Assembly (NCBI GenBank): GCA_030692565.1
Contig: JAUYAO010000022.1
Coordinates: 1-64,000, forward strand
Reading direction: 5' to 3'
From: Nitrospira sp.
GTDB lineage: Bacteria; Nitrospirota; Nitrospiria; Nitrospirales; Nitrospiraceae
DNA length: 64,000 nucleotides
Under the pieces are notes generated by a model that worked only from the letters and a program-made list of their open reading frames with translations, did no database searches and was not told the DNA's origin. Shown here piece after piece: positions 36,194 through 45,248 of this stretch. A program made the translations under genes and the position numbers. The stretch's first letter is position 1, and each line of letters starts with the position of its first letter.

Positions 36194-38926
36194 ATGCTGA
36201 CACAACTCCTGAATCTCGTCTTCGGCAGTAAGAACGATCGTGAAATCAAAGCGTTGATGCCCGTTGTGGCGCGCATCAACGACTTGGAGTCCAGCCTTAC
36301 GCCCTTGTCGGATCAGGACCTGGTCGGCAAAACCCAGGAGTTCAAGAAACGGCTGGCCGACGGCCAGACGCTCGACGACATCCTCCCGGAAGCCTTTGCC
36401 GTCTGCCGCGAAATGTCCCGCCGCAGGCTGAATATGCGGCACTTCGATGTCCAGCTCATCGGCGGCATGATCCTGCACCGGGGCCGCATCGCGGAAATGA
36501 AGACCGGTGAAGGAAAAACCCTCGTCGCAACCCTGCCGATCTATTTGAATGCGCTCGAAGGCAAGGGCGTGCATCTGATCACCGTGAACGATTACCTCGC
36601 CAAGCGCGATGCCCAATGGATGGCGCAGCTCTATCATGCGCTGGGATTGTCCGTCGGCATCATCCAGCACGACGCCTCGTTCCTCTACGATCCTGCATAC
36701 GACGCGGCCGATAAGCGCTTGCAGTCCCTCCGCCCCTGCACGAGGCGGGAGGCCTATCACGCGGACATCACCTACGGAACCAACAACGAGTACGGGTTCG
36801 ACTATTTGCGCGACAACCTGATCGTGAGCGAATTGGGCCAGTGCGTTCAGCGCGAACTGAACTATGCGATCGTCGACGAGGTGGACAGCATCCTGATCGA
36901 CGAAGCCCGCACGCCATTGATCATCTCCGGCCCGACCGATCAGACCACCGATCTGTACTACCGGATCAACTCCGTGATCCCGCAGTTGAAGCCCGAGCAC
37001 GACTTTACGATCGAAGAGAAGACCAAGACCGCCTCGTTGACGGAAGAGGGCAACATCCGGGTTGAGAAGCTTCTGGGTGTGGACAACCTCTACGATCCGG
37101 ACAACATGGATCTGGTTCACCACGTCGTCAAGGCGCTCCAGGCCTATGCGTTGTATAAGCGCGATGTCGATTATGTCGTGAAAGACGGCGAGGTCATCAT
37201 CGTCGATGAATTCACCGGGCGCCTCATGCCCGGCCGCCGCTGGAGCGACGGACTGCACCAGGCCGTGGAAGCCAAAGAAGGCGTGAAGATCGCCAACGAG
37301 AATCAGACGCTGGCCTCCGTCACATTCCAGAACTATTTCCGCATGTACAAGAAGCTCAGCGGCATGACCGGCACGGCCGACACGGAAGCCGCAGAGTTCG
37401 CCAAGATTTACAATCTCGACGTGAACGTCGTCCCGACGAATCGCAAGATGGTCCGCCTCGACTACGCCGACGTGGTCTATCGGACAGAGAAGGAAAAGTT
37501 TGAGGCCATCGTCGAGGAGATCAAGGACTGCAATGAGCGCGGACAGCCGGTCCTCGTCGGCACAATTTCCATCGAAAAGTCAGAGAAGCTCTCCGGCTTG
37601 CTGAACCGGAACGGGGTCAAACACAACGTTCTCAACGCCAAACAGCATGAACGCGAGGCGGAAATCGTCGCCCAGGCCGGACGCAAAGGCGCCGTCACCA
37701 TCGCCACCAACATGGCGGGCCGCGGCACCGACATTCTCCTCGGCGGCAACGCCGACTTCATGTTCAAGCAGATCCTCTATCGCGAAGAAAACCTGCCGGA
37801 ATCGCGCAAGCTGGAAGTCTTCGAAGAGATTCGCAGCGACTGCGAGAAGAACAAACAGGAAGTCGTCGTCGCCGGCGGCTTGCACATCCTCGGCACCGAA
37901 CGGCACGAGAGCCGCCGCATCGACAACCAGCTGCGCGGCCGCGCCGGCCGTCAGGGCGATGCCGGATCATCCAGATTTTACCTGTCCCTTGAAGACGACC
38001 TCATGCGGATCTTCGCCTCGGAGCGCGTCTCGCAACTGATGCTGAAACTCGGCATGGAAGAAGGCGTGCCCATCGAACATGGCATGGTCACCCGCGCCAT
38101 CGCCAATGCGCAGAAGAAGGTCGAGGCGCACAATTTCGAGATTCGCAAGCAGCTGCTCGAATACGACGATGTGATGAATAAGCAGCGCGAAGTCATCTAT
38201 CAGCACCGCCATGCCGTGCTGGCCGGCGAGAATCTGAAAGCCGACCTCCTCGACATGATGGCGGGCATGATCGACTCCGCCATGGCCATCTTCTGTCCGG
38301 CCGAACAATATCCCGAAGAGTGGGACATGCCCGGCCTCGTCGAAATGATGCACGGCCAATTCGGGCTCGACATCACGCAAGGCAAGCAGGACCACGGCGA
38401 TTCGCTCCGCGATCTCGGCCGCGACGCGCTGATCGAAGATCTCAAAAAACTCGTGCACGACGGCTACGAGCGGAAGGAACAGGAGCTGGGCTCGGAGCTG
38501 ATGCGCTTCCTGGAAAAGACCTTCATGCTCCAGGTCATCGACCACCATTGGAAAGACCACCTCCTTGGCATGGACCATCTGCGCGACGGCATCGGCCTCC
38601 GCGGCTACGGGCAGAAGGATCCGCTGATTGAATATAAGAAGGAAGGCTACGACCTCTTCGCCGGCATGATGCAGCGGGTTAAATCGGATGCCCTGGAACG
38701 GCTGTTCCGCGTCCAGGCCGTAAAACATGAGGAAGGCGAGCCCGCCCCTGCCGCGCCGCCTCCTCTCCCTCCGGTCATCGCCCGTCCGCAGCCGACGCTG
38801 ACGCTCAATCGCGGCGAAGCCGCCGAAGCCCCCAAGACCGTGGAGCGGGTCGACGATAAAGTCGGCCGGAACGATCCCTGCCCCTGCGGGAGCGGGAAAA
38901 AGTACAAAAAGTGCCACGGAACGTGA
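36194..38926 (+). CDS. secA: Protein translocase ATPase SecA
   Basis: 910-residue motor that drives preproteins through SecYEG. Walker A MKTGEGKT at 102-109, the DEVDS Walker B ([14 protein letters not shown]), [29 protein letters not shown] in NBD2 and the C-terminal zinc tail [17 protein letters not shown]. Length is normal. It faces away from the left-hand metal cluster and starts its own transcript. A candidate -10 (TATACT, near 36116) precedes it without a convincing -35. Confidence 0.97.
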
Positions 38927-39570
38927 AGAGGGGATAGCTGGGCCATGGGGACCAGAGCTTCGTTCTTCGGCATAACGTGACAACCCACCACTACTACTGA
39001 TCCTCTCCGTTCTTCTCCGAACCCGCCTGTAAAACTGCGCCGAAGCGTCGCAGTGCCGGTGCGCCTGGCCTACAAGGCCACTCGTACCACTACCACGCAT
39101 GCCAAGCACCGAAGCTCCGATCCCCATCGCCCAGCAAAGGAAGGGGAAGTAGAGGAAAGTCGCAGCGTCCGCTTTCCATCCTGCCAGAGTCTCGGCAGAA
39201 CCGCGAAGGACACGGCAGTATCATCTGCCGCTGAGAAGGAAGGGGAAGAAAAGCCGCCCTTCAACCTGCCGCACCACTTGGTTCACAGCCCTTCCAGCAT
39301 AGATCTCTCACTGATTAGAAATAGCGGTCGATTCTGATCGGCATGGAAGCGCTTGATTATGAATGCATTGCGCTTCTCACGCAGCTCTGTATTCAACCGC
39401 TACCTGGCGAACTCGCCAGGTGCGCTTGAAAGGTTCGAGTGATAGCGTACCTTGCATCAGCAATCAGATAATCCATTGAATGATATGAGCCCTACACCAT
39501 TTTGAACATCCAGTGAACTACATCCCATGTGAGTTAACACGATCATCGCGGGCGTAGGGATGGTGACGCC
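38927..39570. other. Intergenic region without a recognisable gene
   Basis: About 640 bp between secA and the first repeat-protein gene. The right half looks AT-richer than the left. I see no gene, tRNA or clear repeat; one plus-strand frame (about 39053-39337) has no family-like features. Confidence 0.4.
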
Positions 39571-40743
39571 ATGAGTCTCGTGCTTCTCCCTGCCGTACCA
39601 AGCATAGTTGTTGGGTTTCTATTCATCCTTGCTGGCTCCAGCCTGACGGCGTGCGATCAATCAGATGCCCCTTCGCAAAATGGACCTAATCAGCATCAAG
39701 CGGCGGGCCTAACTCTTGATCCGGTTGAGACGCCTGAATTTCTGACAGCTGATTGGCAAGAATCGGTCTCCGGGGAAAACTCCGGCGGCTTGGCTGGCCT
39801 GGCACCACACGAACGGCCTGAGATCGCATACTTTCAGGCAGATACTGACGGAGACGGATCACAGGAAGAAGTCTATCTCTGCCGATCAGCCAGAGTCTGC
39901 ATCAAGCATGACGGCCTCTCATCTCCATCCATATATTCAAACCCGAACTGGCAAACCGTGTCGTTGGTGGCCGTACACGACACCGACGGAGAAGCGGGAA
40001 GCGAAATAATCGTGGTAGCTATTTCCAAAGACGCTAGCCTGGCTTGTATCTGCGTCATCCATGAACGCACTGGGGCGGTCGAGAGCTATCGCGCTGCAGG
40101 CTGGCACACAGCAAGCATCTTCGCCACAACTGATATCGATGGGGACAAGGCATCTGAGGTGTTCATCTTGGCTCGCGACAACCAGGATGCGCTCCAATGT
40201 ATATGTGTGATTCACGATCGGGAGCGGACCATTCATACCTATCACAGCCCGATTTGGTCGACACTCGGAAGTTATTACATAGAAGACGCGGACGGACGCC
40301 CGGGGAAAGAACTCATCGTAGAAATCAGGGACCGCAACAATAGCTTGGCCTGCGTCTGCATCATTCATGATCAGAATGAGCAGGCTAAAATCTATAATGA
40401 ATCTCATTGGCATTCAGGAACGGTAAATCAACTAGTGGACACGGACGGGCAACCCGGCATGGAGATAGTTGTTTCTTATACATCGGAATCGGCAAATGGG
40501 ATTGCGGTCATTCATGACCGGGAAGAATCGATCAGTGATTACAGTTTCTCTGGTGACAATCCAACCATTCAGCAGGTTGCTGATTTCGACTCAGCGAAAG
40601 GCGCTGAACTCTGCGTCCTTCTTGCCAATAGGGACGCTCTGGTTCTGATCGCTGACAGAACGCACGAGCAAATGTCCGTCGGAGCATGTGGGCCATTAGC
40701 AGATCAAGACCAACTACCCCACAAACCCAAAGGCCTTACTTAG
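39571..40743 (+). CDS. Lipoprotein with six Asp-rich CICVIHDR repeats
   Basis: 390 residues: lipobox LTAC (Cys28), linker, then six repeats of about 50 residues from about 78. Each has a loop like D-x-D-G-x-x-G-x-E (calcium-loop-like) and most end in CICVIHDR or variants (CVCIIHDQ, GIAVIHDRE), so a repeat beta-propeller of FG-GAP/VCBS type is likely. Repeat 6 closes with VLLANRDALVLIADRTHEQ. No enzyme motif is seen; it is probably a surface or secreted protein. A diverged C-terminal remnant of a paralogue lies at 42458. Codon use and base composition look AT-richer than the surroundings. Confidence 0.65.
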   Translation: MSLVLLPAVPSIVVGFLFILAGSSLTACDQSDAPSQNGPNQHQAAGLTLDPVETPEFLTADWQESVSGENSGGLAGLAPHERPEIAYFQADTDGDGSQEEVYLCRSARVCIKHDGLSSPSIYSNPNWQTVSLVAVHDTDGEAGSEIIVVAISKDASLACICVIHERTGAVESYRAAGWHTASIFATTDIDGDKASEVFILARDNQDALQCICVIHDRERTIHTYHSPIWSTLGSYYIEDADGRPGKELIVEIRDRNNSLACVCIIHDQNEQAKIYNESHWHSGTVNQLVDTDGQPGMEIVVSYTSESANGIAVIHDREESISDYSFSGDNPTIQQVADFDSAKGAELCVLLANRDALVLIADRTHEQMSVGACGPLADQDQLPHKPKGLT

Positions 40744-40818
40744 GGAAGAAGCTAGATGCTCATTGAGGCAGATACCCTGTATTCGTTCAGCAATGCTCTC
40801 ACGCAAAGGAGGTTGGTG

Positions 40819-41823
40819 ATGAAACGCCTTAACATCTCCCTTGCCACAGCATGGTTGGTCTTCTCGCCGGTATGGGCTTTGGGAAACAATAATCTTGTTG
40901 CTGGTGGAAGCGGGGCCTTGCCTTCAACAACGTGGGAAATCAGAAATAATGCAGGAGGCCTCATCTCCTCGGGGAGCCTACTTGCTGCCCGTCTCTACCA
41001 GTGCGGCGTACGACTTTCAACGGGTAATATTTTCCTGGGAGGGGGAACGTCATCGGCGAGCACCTGGGGAATTCGGAATTCTAGTGGCGCCCTTGTCTCC
41101 AATGGCAGCATGGCAGCAAGCCGAGATAACGGCTTTACCTGCACCGTCCTCAGTGGCGGGAATATCTTTATCGCTGGAGGACAAGCAACCCCTAATGGCT
41201 GGGAAATACGCAACGGCTCAGGTGCTTTCGTGAGCACAGGAACTTTGAATGCCTCTCGCAAGGATCATACAGCAACATTGCTTTCAACCGGAAACGTCCT
41301 CATTGTGGGTGGCTCCATCTCTACCTTTAGTTGGGAGATTCGCAATAGCGCTGGTGGGCTAGTGTCAAGTGGAACACCTTTTGCGACTCGGTGGAATCAC
41401 TGCGCCGTTGAACTAACCAACGGTAATGTGTTCATTGGGGGCGGGGGCGGCTCGTTGGGCTCCTGGGAAATCCGCAACAATGCGGGTGGTTTGGTCAGCA
41501 CAGGGTTCTTCTGGGCAAGTCGGGATTTTTACTTCACCTGTAACCGTCTCTTGAACGGGAATATTATTGTCATAGGGGGACAAGCCAACTTGCAGAATTG
41601 GGAAATCCGCGATCAGAACGGCGCACTTGTCTCGAACGGGACGCTATGGGCGAGTCGCTTTGGACATGGAGCTCAGGTACAGTCGGACACGGGCAATGTC
41701 CTGATTACCGGCGGGAATTCATCGGCGGGAACTTGGGAATTGCGATCATCGACGGGTGCACCGATAAGCAACGGAACCCTTCAGCGCAACCGAATTCTCG
41801 GGCATTCCCTGACGCAATACTAA
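40819..41823 (+). CDS. Exported seven-repeat Kelch-like propeller protein
   Basis: 334 residues: signal peptide (1-22, WAL) and seven repeats of about 46 residues, each with W-[EG]-[IL]-R-[NDS] and GG-x-[LIV]-S-x-G (for example TTWEIRNNAGGLISSG ... GNVLIVGG), matching a seven-bladed Kelch-type propeller. AAAGGAGG (40805-40812) fixes the start at 40819. It follows the CICVIHDR lipoprotein, probably in one transcript. Confidence 0.7.
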   Translation: MKRLNISLATAWLVFSPVWALGNNNLVAGGSGALPSTTWEIRNNAGGLISSGSLLAARLYQCGVRLSTGNIFLGGGTSSASTWGIRNSSGALVSNGSMAASRDNGFTCTVLSGGNIFIAGGQATPNGWEIRNGSGAFVSTGTLNASRKDHTATLLSTGNVLIVGGSISTFSWEIRNSAGGLVSSGTPFATRWNHCAVELTNGNVFIGGGGGSLGSWEIRNNAGGLVSTGFFWASRDFYFTCNRLLNGNIIVIGGQANLQNWEIRDQNGALVSNGTLWASRFGHGAQVQSDTGNVLITGGNSSAGTWELRSSTGAPISNGTLQRNRILGHSLTQY

Positions 41824-41933
41824 TCCGTTATTGCAATCGATACATCTGGGGGAAGCTTGTTTGGATACAGGAATAAGAGTCGCAGCGGTATGTGCTGGCC
41901 AGCAAGAGAAGGGGCCACCCTTCCTCTGAGAGC

Positions 41934-42419
41934 ATGAAGACCATGATTATGCATGTCCTGCTTGCCCTTCTGGTCCTATTGACCCCGCTATACGCGAGAG
42001 CGAGCGACACTGTTTTGATTGTCAACGTGCTCGCCCAGCCAGAAGCTTTTCATGCCCGCACCGTTCTGTTTTCAGGGACGGTGCGGGACGTGACCATTCT
42101 TCCGCAAACCGACGAGGACATTCGACTAAATCGGGCTGATGGAGGCACACTTGACTTGCCACAACGGTGTTACTTTGTTCACCCCGCCTATCAATTCACC
42201 CTCGACGATGGAACAGGGGCTCTCGTCATCTCTGTTCGGCCAAGATTCCCTTGCGTTCCTGGACAGCCCCCCCTCGCACCTCTCTCCATCGAAGATGGCG
42301 ATATTGTATCGGTGGACACGTTTATACAGATCAAACCCGTTCCCCAAGGAGCTTCCCTCTTATCCATAGAAGCCATCGCCTCACGGATCATCAAGAACGC
42401 CCACCAACTTCTTCATTAA
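41934..42419 (+). CDS. Exported protein, paralogue of the gene at 42655
   Basis: 161 residues: signal peptide (to about 23, ARA) and a small beta domain (VNVLAQPEAFHARTVLFSGTVRDVTILP ... YQFTLDDGTGALVISVRPRFPC) that aligns with the protein at 42655 (ILANPQAFNLRVVRLQGVVQALERIP ... YIFTLNDTTGELAIVDHGTC). OB-like fold is likely; the overall pattern also recalls Slp-type lipoproteins. Function unknown. Confidence 0.6.
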   Translation: MKTMIMHVLLALLVLLTPLYARASDTVLIVNVLAQPEAFHARTVLFSGTVRDVTILPQTDEDIRLNRADGGTLDLPQRCYFVHPAYQFTLDDGTGALVISVRPRFPCVPGQPPLAPLSIEDGDIVSVDTFIQIKPVPQGASLLSIEAIASRIIKNAHQLLH

Positions 42420-42457
42420 CTGGTATACAAAGTGGAGATGTTCGGAACGGGAGGATC

Positions 42458-42664
42458 TATCCTGCCGAAGTCTCGGTGGGTACTCACTCATTCAACGAAA
42501 GGCACACCATTCAGCAAATAGGAAATACCGATCGATCTCAAGGGGATGAAATATGCGTGCTCCTACCCTCTCTCGAAAAGCTCGTGTTAATCACTGATCG
42601 AGTGCACGAGCAACGAGTCGTTGAATCCTGCGGGCAATCACAAAGATCATCGGCTCAGGGATGA
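42458..42664 (+). pseudogene. 3' remnant of a CICVIHDR-type repeat gene
   Basis: The plus frame ending at 42664 reads HTIQQIGNTDRSQGDEICVLLPSLEKLVLITDRVHEQRVVESCG, matching the last repeat and tail of the protein at 39571 (PTIQQVADFDSAKGAELCVLLANRDALVLIADRTHEQ). The 5' part is missing. It indicates an earlier second copy. Confidence 0.65.
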
Positions 42665-43113
42665 TCAAATACCTGCGAATTGGGTATCCGTTTTACCCAT
42701 CGTAGCTTCCCTTCCAATTTACGCGAATCGAAGTTTGGAGAAAACAGTAAGGAGACATCACTGACGACCTCAACGTTGTCACCTACTGCAAAATCCGTCA
42801 TCAGGGGTTTCGCCGGCAACGAGAACTCATTTTGACATGTCCCATGGTCGACGATTGCGAGTTCTCCAGTTGTATCATTAAGCGTAAAGATGTATGAATC
42901 ATCAGCTGGCCCGCAACCACCGGTGTGTGGGATTCGTTCTAAGGCCTGGACAACACCCTGTAGACGTACGACCCGCAGATTGAAGGCTTGAGGATTGGCG
43001 AGAATCGATTGAATCGGGATGGGCTCTTCACGCACAAGTTCCGTGGCATCTAAGACAGGCAGCCACAGGCTACAACAGCCGACAAATATAATGACGCACA
43101 GCCTCACTCGCAT
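42655..43113 (-). CDS. Exported protein, paralogue of the gene at 41934
   Basis: 152 residues with a hydrophobic signal (VRLCVIIFVGCCSLWLPVLDA) and a beta domain similar to the 41934 product, with Cys residues at the same relative end of the domain (DHGTCQNEF against RPRFPCVPG). It is encoded on the opposite strand, so the pair is not a simple tandem. A TTG upstream at 43143 is a less likely start. Function unknown. Confidence 0.6.
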   Translation of the reverse strand: MRVRLCVIIFVGCCSLWLPVLDATELVREEPIPIQSILANPQAFNLRVVRLQGVVQALERIPHTGGCGPADDSYIFTLNDTTGELAIVDHGTCQNEFSLPAKPLMTDFAVGDNVEVVSDVSLLFSPNFDSRKLEGKLRWVKRIPNSQVFDHP

Positions 43114-43211
43114 ACAAATCAGTATACTTCGAAATGTAGACAAGCCTAGCGTTGCAACAGAGAGCAGATTAGAAGTTGCCTTCGATTTCGGTTGGGATTA
43201 CGATAAGTTTT

Positions 43212-43556
43212 ATGAAGCTGAACGAAATGCGTCCAAATCTGCTGTCGAGCGCCCCTTCAGGAGCGCTCCATGTTGCCGGAACGCGGGTCACCATTGACTC
43301 CATCGTTCAGGGCTTCCTCGACGGCGCCACTCCGGAGGAGATCTGCCAAGACTTTCCGGCCCTCGCCTTGGCTCAGGTTTACGATGTGCTGGCCTTTTAC
43401 CTTACTCACCAGCTTGAGGTCGAAAGCTATCTTCGAGAGCAGGCTCAGGTCACGGCAGAAATCCGGAAGAGTCTAGAAACTACCCACACCGCATTTGTGA
43501 CAAACCTCCGACAACGCCTCGCAACGCGCCGCTCAGCTGCGGCCCCCCACGCGTGA
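43212..43556 (+). CDS. DUF433-family antitoxin-like protein without an adjacent toxin
   Basis: About 114 residues: DUF433 core (HVAGTRVTIDSIVQGFLDGATPEEICQDFPALALAQVYDVLAFYLTHQ). Members are usually the antitoxin partner of a DUF5615 PIN-like toxin. No such partner follows; the next 450 bp hold a repeat element. It may be an orphan from a lost TA locus. ATG 43212 or 43227. Confidence 0.7.
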   Translation: MKLNEMRPNLLSSAPSGALHVAGTRVTIDSIVQGFLDGATPEEICQDFPALALAQVYDVLAFYLTHQLEVESYLREQAQVTAEIRKSLETTHTAFVTNLRQRLATRRSAAAPHA

Positions 43557-44000: not shown

Positions 44001-45248
44001 GTGAAGTCTACCGGTCGTGGATTGGTGTATTCACTGACGCGCCTTGTCAGCAGAGAAACGGACTTCTTTGTGACGATCGGGCATCCTGAACTCGTTGCCG
44101 CCATGACCGCCGAGATTGCCGCCTCGGGGCCGATACCCTTCGTCCGTTTTATGGAACTGGCGCTCTATCATCCCCAATTCGGCTACTACATGCGTCCGCC
44201 GGAGTCCGGCGCCGAGCGCATCGGCTGGTCCGGCGACTTCTATACCAGTTCAGACGTCCATCCGATTCTCGGCCAGGCGCTGGCGAAACAGGCGCGACAG
44301 CTCGATGCCATCCTCGGACATCCCGATCCCTTCACCGTCGTCGAGATGGGACCCGGAAAAGGCTTACTGGCCAAGCATTTCCTGTCGGCCTGCCGCGTGA
44401 ATCCGGATGACTCGTTCAGCCAGCGCCTCCGCTATGTCCTCATTGAGCGCAGCCCGGCGATGCAGGATTTGCAACGCCAGAATCTGTTACACGGGCTCTG
44501 TGAACCGGGCCGCATTACCTGGCTTGAAGGACTCGATTCGCTGGCAGAACGGAGCGTCACCGGCCTGTGCTTCAGCAACGAATTGCCCGATGCGTTTCCG
44601 GTCCACCGAATCCAGATCGAGAACGGCCGGGCGCAGGAAATCTACGTCGACTATGACGGCACGACATTCGTGGAATGTCTCCGCCCCTTGTCGTCGCCGG
44701 AGATCCACGAGTATCTGGACAACCTGAAGCTGACGCTTCCGGACGGCTACCAGACGGAGATCAACACGGCTGCGGTGCGCTGGATGGAACAGGTCGCCCG
44801 CGCGATTGACCGCGGCCTGGCGATTACAATCGATTACGGCCACACCGCGCAGGATCTCTACGGCCCCGATCGCGCGAAGGGAACGCTGCTCTGCTACTAC
44901 TCGCAGATGACCTCGGAAAATCCTTATGAGCGGGTCGGTCTCCAGGACATGACCTCCCATGTGGACTTTTCGACCCTCGCCACCGTCGGCGAAAAACAGG
45001 GTCTACGCGTGACCGGCTTTACCAATCAGATGAGCTTCCTGATGGGGCTCGGCCTGGAAGACGTTCTCTCGAAGATGGATCCCGAAGGCGCCGAGTTTCG
45101 CGCGGCCATTCATCTGGTAAGACCGGAAGGGATGGGGCGCACATTCAAGGTGCTCATTCAGCATAAAGGCATCGAGATGCCGACGCTCGACGGACTGGCC
45201 TTCAAGCCGTTCTTCGGATCCGCATTGACGTTGCATCACGCAGCCTAA
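44001..45248 (+). CDS. midA: SAM-dependent methyltransferase, MidA/NDUFAF7 family
   Basis: About 415 residues with MidA hallmarks: IPFVRFMELALYHPQFGYYMR, GDFYTSSDVHPILGQALAKQ, the SAM motif VVEMGPGKG, SNELPDAFPVHRI and TIDYGH. In mitochondria NDUFAF7 dimethylates an Arg of the NuoD homologue NDUFS2 and is needed for complex I assembly (established knowledge). Here the gene ends 8 nt before nuoA, so a role in assembling this complex I is a strong inference. GTG 44001 is the longest start; GTG 44070 or ATG 44103 fit the family N-terminus better. Confidence 0.88.
   Translation: MKSTGRGLVYSLTRLVSRETDFFVTIGHPELVAAMTAEIAASGPIPFVRFMELALYHPQFGYYMRPPESGAERIGWSGDFYTSSDVHPILGQALAKQARQLDAILGHPDPFTVVEMGPGKGLLAKHFLSACRVNPDDSFSQRLRYVLIERSPAMQDLQRQNLLHGLCEPGRITWLEGLDSLAERSVTGLCFSNELPDAFPVHRIQIENGRAQEIYVDYDGTTFVECLRPLSSPEIHEYLDNLKLTLPDGYQTEINTAAVRWMEQVARAIDRGLAITIDYGHTAQDLYGPDRAKGTLLCYYSQMTSENPYERVGLQDMTSHVDFSTLATVGEKQGLRVTGFTNQMSFLMGLGLEDVLSKMDPEGAEFRAAIHLVRPEGMGRTFKVLIQHKGIEMPTLDGLAFKPFFGSALTLHHAA

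Follow-up and report, generated by a model that had tools for sequence, protein, structure and literature searches.

A probable rearranged copy of a mobile Nitrospira cargo module encoding exported propeller and OB-type proteins

A 4.0-kb block between secA and a DUF433 gene in a 4.17-Mb Nitrospira genome is probably a rearranged chromosomal version of a mobile Nitrospira cargo module, with exported propellers acting as surface or matrix ligand binders. The structural and evolutionary part of this reading is very likely correct. The functional part taken alone, surface ligand or matrix binding, is a tentative proposal by analogy. The block occupies the secA–DUF433 interval, a site that is empty in the relatives. 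It was found in a 64,000-nucleotide stretch of DNA, here called the window.

The secA gene ends at position 38926, and the ancestral DUF433 gene lies at 43206–43556. The empty site was located across the genus using the secA end and was then read in eight near relatives. In the Nitrospira genome G312 (L073; 87–92% identical here), the match to the window runs as far as 39189 and resumes at 43160, and 53 unrelated bp separate the two blocks. The insert is therefore assigned to 39190–43159, flanked by the intergenic sequence 3′ of secA on one side and by the DUF433 gene on the other. A sequence-only reading of the window had described an acquired and rearranged AT-richer insert of 3.5 kb; the parts it listed are all present, and the true insert is a little larger. 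None of the eight near relatives read at the secA site has the insert genes. The right flank of G030 is 97.5% identical to the window, yet the insert is absent. Neither insert nor DUF433 is present in G030, G033, G025, G321, and G022. Neither a target duplication nor terminal (inverted) repeats were detected at the insert ends. The locus might instead be ancestral and have been lost from relatives rather than gained here, given that the secA–DUF433 interval is variable and that DUF433 is also missing in most relatives. Absence in 8/8 near relatives and the ties of these genes to mobile elements elsewhere make such a history very improbable.

The insert has a G+C content of 52.0%, versus 59.9% for the rest of the window. 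It lies ~6.6 SD below the 522 same-length segments outside it (59.97% ± 1.2%, minimum 56.4%). Third-position GC is also lower, at 0.48–0.56 versus 0.80 for secA and 0.74 for the gene at 44001–45248. Homologues of the insert genes in other genomes have a G+C content of 48–54%, so the low value is partly a property of the genes and is little guide to how recently they were gained. The proposed acquisition is supported by the empty sites and by recurrence of the genes on conjugative elements of other Nitrospira.

The module on these elements is a trio of kelch, PA5033-type, and OB genes (kelch → PA5033-type ← OB). It lies directly downstream of traF in an IncP-like relaxase/VirD4/TraF region on six elements in five other Nitrospira genomes, with two copies partial. 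G027, G004, G222, and G415 share the gene order relaxase, coupling protein, TraF peptidase, kelch → P0001-type ← OB, and a Lactonase/YVTN-type propeller gene; in two of the four, the contig ends within this last gene. G003 has the trio in the same order; transfer genes were not detected on that contig. G342 has two partial copies, one consisting of the last 118 residues of a P0001-type gene (with internal stop codons), OB, and the YVTN gene, and the other cut by the contig end. Domains of the transfer genes are Relaxase with TraI middle and C-terminal domains, T4SS-DNA_transf, Peptidase_S26 (TraF), and Fic. The nearest plasmid relaxases of the element relaxase are TraI/MobA(P). A relaxase of this type is found in 5 of 7 module genomes versus 6 of the other 72 (Fisher p 0.0004). 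It was not detected in the window genome, and we therefore infer the descent of the block from such an element.

The constant place right after traF in six elements, together with export signals and a lipobox, would fit a part in conjugation, with the proteins acting between donor and recipient in surface exclusion or as mating-pair proteins. That role is improbable. The trio is missing from seven traF regions that share this relaxase, VirD4, and TraF, and other genes stand in its place (L080–L084 and L086 are named; L085 ends too soon to judge). By inspection, these genes encode an oxidoreductase, response regulators, a caspase-like protein, and integrases. One PA5033-type gene also occurs by itself, on a contig whose relaxase is of a different, MobA-like kind. 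Given the seven same-backbone regions, the trio is cargo of the conjugative elements and not transfer machinery, and Nitrospira conjugative elements have a variable cargo slot after traF.

The module is patchy, being present in 7 of the 79 genus genomes. The P0001 profile matched in a few genomes of the genus and in none of the other Nitrospirota tested, and there were no relatives of P0001 among PLSDB plasmids or in IMG/VR. A one-genome-per-species scan by conserved peptides, which reaches a limited distance, returned Nitrospira alone. This patchiness and the truncated PA5033-type genes of the window and G342 would suit a decaying, functionless passenger that was brought by an element and is now being lost, but the window still encodes four intact exported proteins. 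Among element copies of the three genes, dN/dS is 0.08–0.45, well under 1 and indicative of purifying selection. Decay is thus an unlikely account, and a rearranged copy of the cargo module is preferred.

A second PA5033-type gene survives as a C-terminal remnant at ~42446–42664 on the plus strand, as first noticed from sequence. Over 60 residues, the remnant shares 58% identity with the end of the element-type protein L019; its identity is 53% to L022 and 46% to P0001, and it matches the P0001 profile at E 4.6e-19. The remnant converges with P0004, overlapping its 3′ end by 10 bp; the overlap on an element is similar (L067: 9881, 9864). Together, the remnant and minus-strand P0004 are the convergent end that is canonical for the module. 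Kelch gene P0002, the remnant, and P0004 are in canonical order, and P0003 occupies the place of the missing front of the second PA5033-type gene. P0001 is a separate, divergent full-length PA5033-type copy upstream. Rearrangement is thus upheld, since the remnant adjoins its usual OB partner and has a second full-length copy upstream of it. The canonical PA5033-type gene is reduced to its C-terminus, and an OB paralogue fills the gap; the sequence in which these changes arose is inferred.

P0001 (39571–40743, plus strand) is the predicted lipoprotein with six CICVIHDR repeats described from the sequence. Its signal has a lipobox, LTAC28, identified by inspection, and is atypical for a lipoprotein in having no basic residue ahead of the hydrophobic stretch. 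It is 33–38% identical to other PA5033-type copies. Repeats are 51 residues long, and three blades have a CxC-x-I-H-[DE] motif (CICVIHER, CICVIHDR, and CVCIIHDQ), with IAVIHDR in a fourth. The sequence-only reading did not recognize the repeat, which is nevertheless not an unknown family. P0001 scores 128.8 bits (E 1.7e-37) against NCBIfam NF052506, the PA5033 family, already known though uncharacterized, with a curated whole-protein cut-off of 100 bits. Other members, L024, L022, and L019, also exceed the cut-off with 146.2, 115.8, and 121.5 bits. Only NCBIfam gave a family; Pfam, PHROGs, and PADLOC gave none of use for P0001. The PADLOC anti-phage defence models matched none of the six proteins tested, and a PDB sequence search with the P0001 profile gave no match.

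Structure prediction, suggested in the sequence-only reading, gave an AlphaFold model of P0001 with six blades of four strands and a disordered N-terminus. Block means of pLDDT are 83–92 over residues 91–320 and 73–81 over 321–370. The top matches in a structure search were all propellers, from several families and tied at Z 12–13.6, with large rmsd (6–11 Å). FG-GAP-type matches were integrin alpha, KICSTOR chain B, and the PVL and Agrocybe lectins. That P0001 is a beta-propeller of six four-stranded blades is well supported by the model. Ten cysteines in the propeller region (residues 104–373) are invariant in 7 of 7 aligned family sequences, and CxC occurs in three successive blades; these cysteines could possibly serve as disulfide or metal staples.

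P0001 resembles FG-GAP/VCBS propellers (integrin alpha, ITFG2, CRTAC1, and PVL lectins) in blade length, a D-T-D-G loop between strands 1 and 2, and predicted fold. It differs from them in its loop, DTDGxxGxE rather than the full DxDGDGxxD, and in the CxC in strand 3 of three blades. Pfam FG-GAP did not match any of five PA5033-type members at E 1. Direct repeat-profile comparison with FG-GAP is weak, with probability 2–7% and E 0.005–0.03 (controls 0.14–0.6). FG-GAP proteins of another Nitrospirota genus (L102 and L104) match the PA5033 model over several blades at 5e-11 and 1e-10, and on these alignments PA5033-type propellers likely descend from FG-GAP-like ones.

P0002 (40819–41823, plus strand) is an exported seven-repeat Kelch-type propeller with WEIRN repeats, in agreement with its first description as Kelch-like. 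Seven W[EG][IL]R repeats are present, and Pfam Kelch_4 scores 35.2 bits, over the gathering cut-off of 21.6. The P0002 profile matches galactose oxidase chains at E 4.5e-5. Seven repeats and the Kelch_4 match are shared with Kelch and galactose oxidase propellers; unlike these, P0002 is short and exported and has no further recognized domain. Element homologues are 50–51% identical. Another locus of this genome (G000:C43:50328-51096; L065 8329-9217) has a kelch fragment with two repeats and 60% identity to P0002 next to a further exported OB gene, possibly a second relic of a kelch–OB neighbourhood.

P0003 (41934–42419, plus strand) and P0004 (42655–43113, minus strand) are small exported proteins that had been read as a paralogous pair. 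Their relationship holds (27% identity, E 5e-8), and an alignment shows two invariant cysteines common to both and to 12 other exported proteins. P0004 is 46–59% identical to element OB copies and groups in the element OB clade with support of 96/98. P0003 groups on a long branch with chromosomal Nitrospira paralogues, with weaker support (92/93). Local duplication is not favoured as the origin of the pair by these groupings, the second being the weaker. The AlphaFold model of P0004 is an OB fold with a mean pLDDT of 72 and matches the AspRS anticodon-binding domain (Z 11.2, rmsd 2.5 over 95 residues); P0003 was assigned to the OB type as a relative of P0004.

P0004 shares its predicted OB fold with anticodon-binding domains and, being also small and exported, resembles Klebsiella lipoprotein 3f1z. 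Unlike either, it belongs to an exported OB-type family found across Nitrospira, which has an invariant pair of cysteines and no Pfam family over cut-off. No tRNA_anti-type Pfam OB family exceeded its cut-off; the best E among 14 members was 0.0022, with none for P0003 or P0004. The family is found in 77 of the 79 genus genomes with one to seven copies each (e.g., L032–L054).

PA5033 of Pseudomonas aeruginosa, enriched 15.5-fold in the secretome of biofilms, is composed of 6–7 repeats reminiscent of FG-GAP propellers (PMC4334185). It has been modelled as a lectin on 4TQJ (PMC8516228). Its deletion lowered biofilm tobramycin and gentamicin resistance and left biofilm formation unaffected (PMC3634840). 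P0001 is like PA5033 in its predicted export and FG-GAP-like propeller. P0001 and most element copies have a lipobox, whereas PA5033 is a secretome protein. PA5033 has PA5032 (AraC-like regulator) and hemE as gene neighbours, whereas the Nitrospira copies have kelch and OB genes. Both propellers in the window are predicted to be exported, one of them lipid-anchored, and would bind ligands as surface or matrix proteins, the role proposed for PA5033; the exported OB protein would be a small partner or ligand binder. This functional reading is drawn from the PA5033 analogy and predicted export, and the intact biofilm formation after PA5033 deletion speaks against it. A more specific version, held to be unlikely, is that the cysteine-rich, lipid-anchored PA5033-type propeller, the Kelch-type propeller, and the exported OB protein would form one dedicated surface complex on the elements, e.g., for matrix binding or cell–cell contact, that was passed to the chromosome and reshuffled. 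A little-studied, biofilm-induced P. aeruginosa family is now tied to a mobile, conserved neighbourhood in nitrifying bacteria, which points to possible partners for PA5033-type propellers. No paper on propeller modules of Nitrospira conjugative elements was found.

Other genes accompany the trio or its members. The lone PA5033-type gene at L024:7657-8796 (L011:111-1250) encodes a protein that has an additional repeat and a plain signal peptide. By inspection, its contig has ParA-, replication-, and MobA-like genes, a different mobile background. The Lactonase/YVTN-type propeller after the trio (L067:10653-11855) is conserved, has 400 residues, and is a third propeller type in the cargo that is absent from the window. 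Several elements encode a Fic protein between relaxase and coupling protein (L067:3191-4141), with a TraI-like C-terminal domain (PF22287) that is common to the neighbouring relaxase. In G027, a gene located between traF and the trio (L009:6318-7445) encodes a protein of the peptidyl-arginine/agmatine deiminase type (PF04371), the N-terminus of which is export-like.
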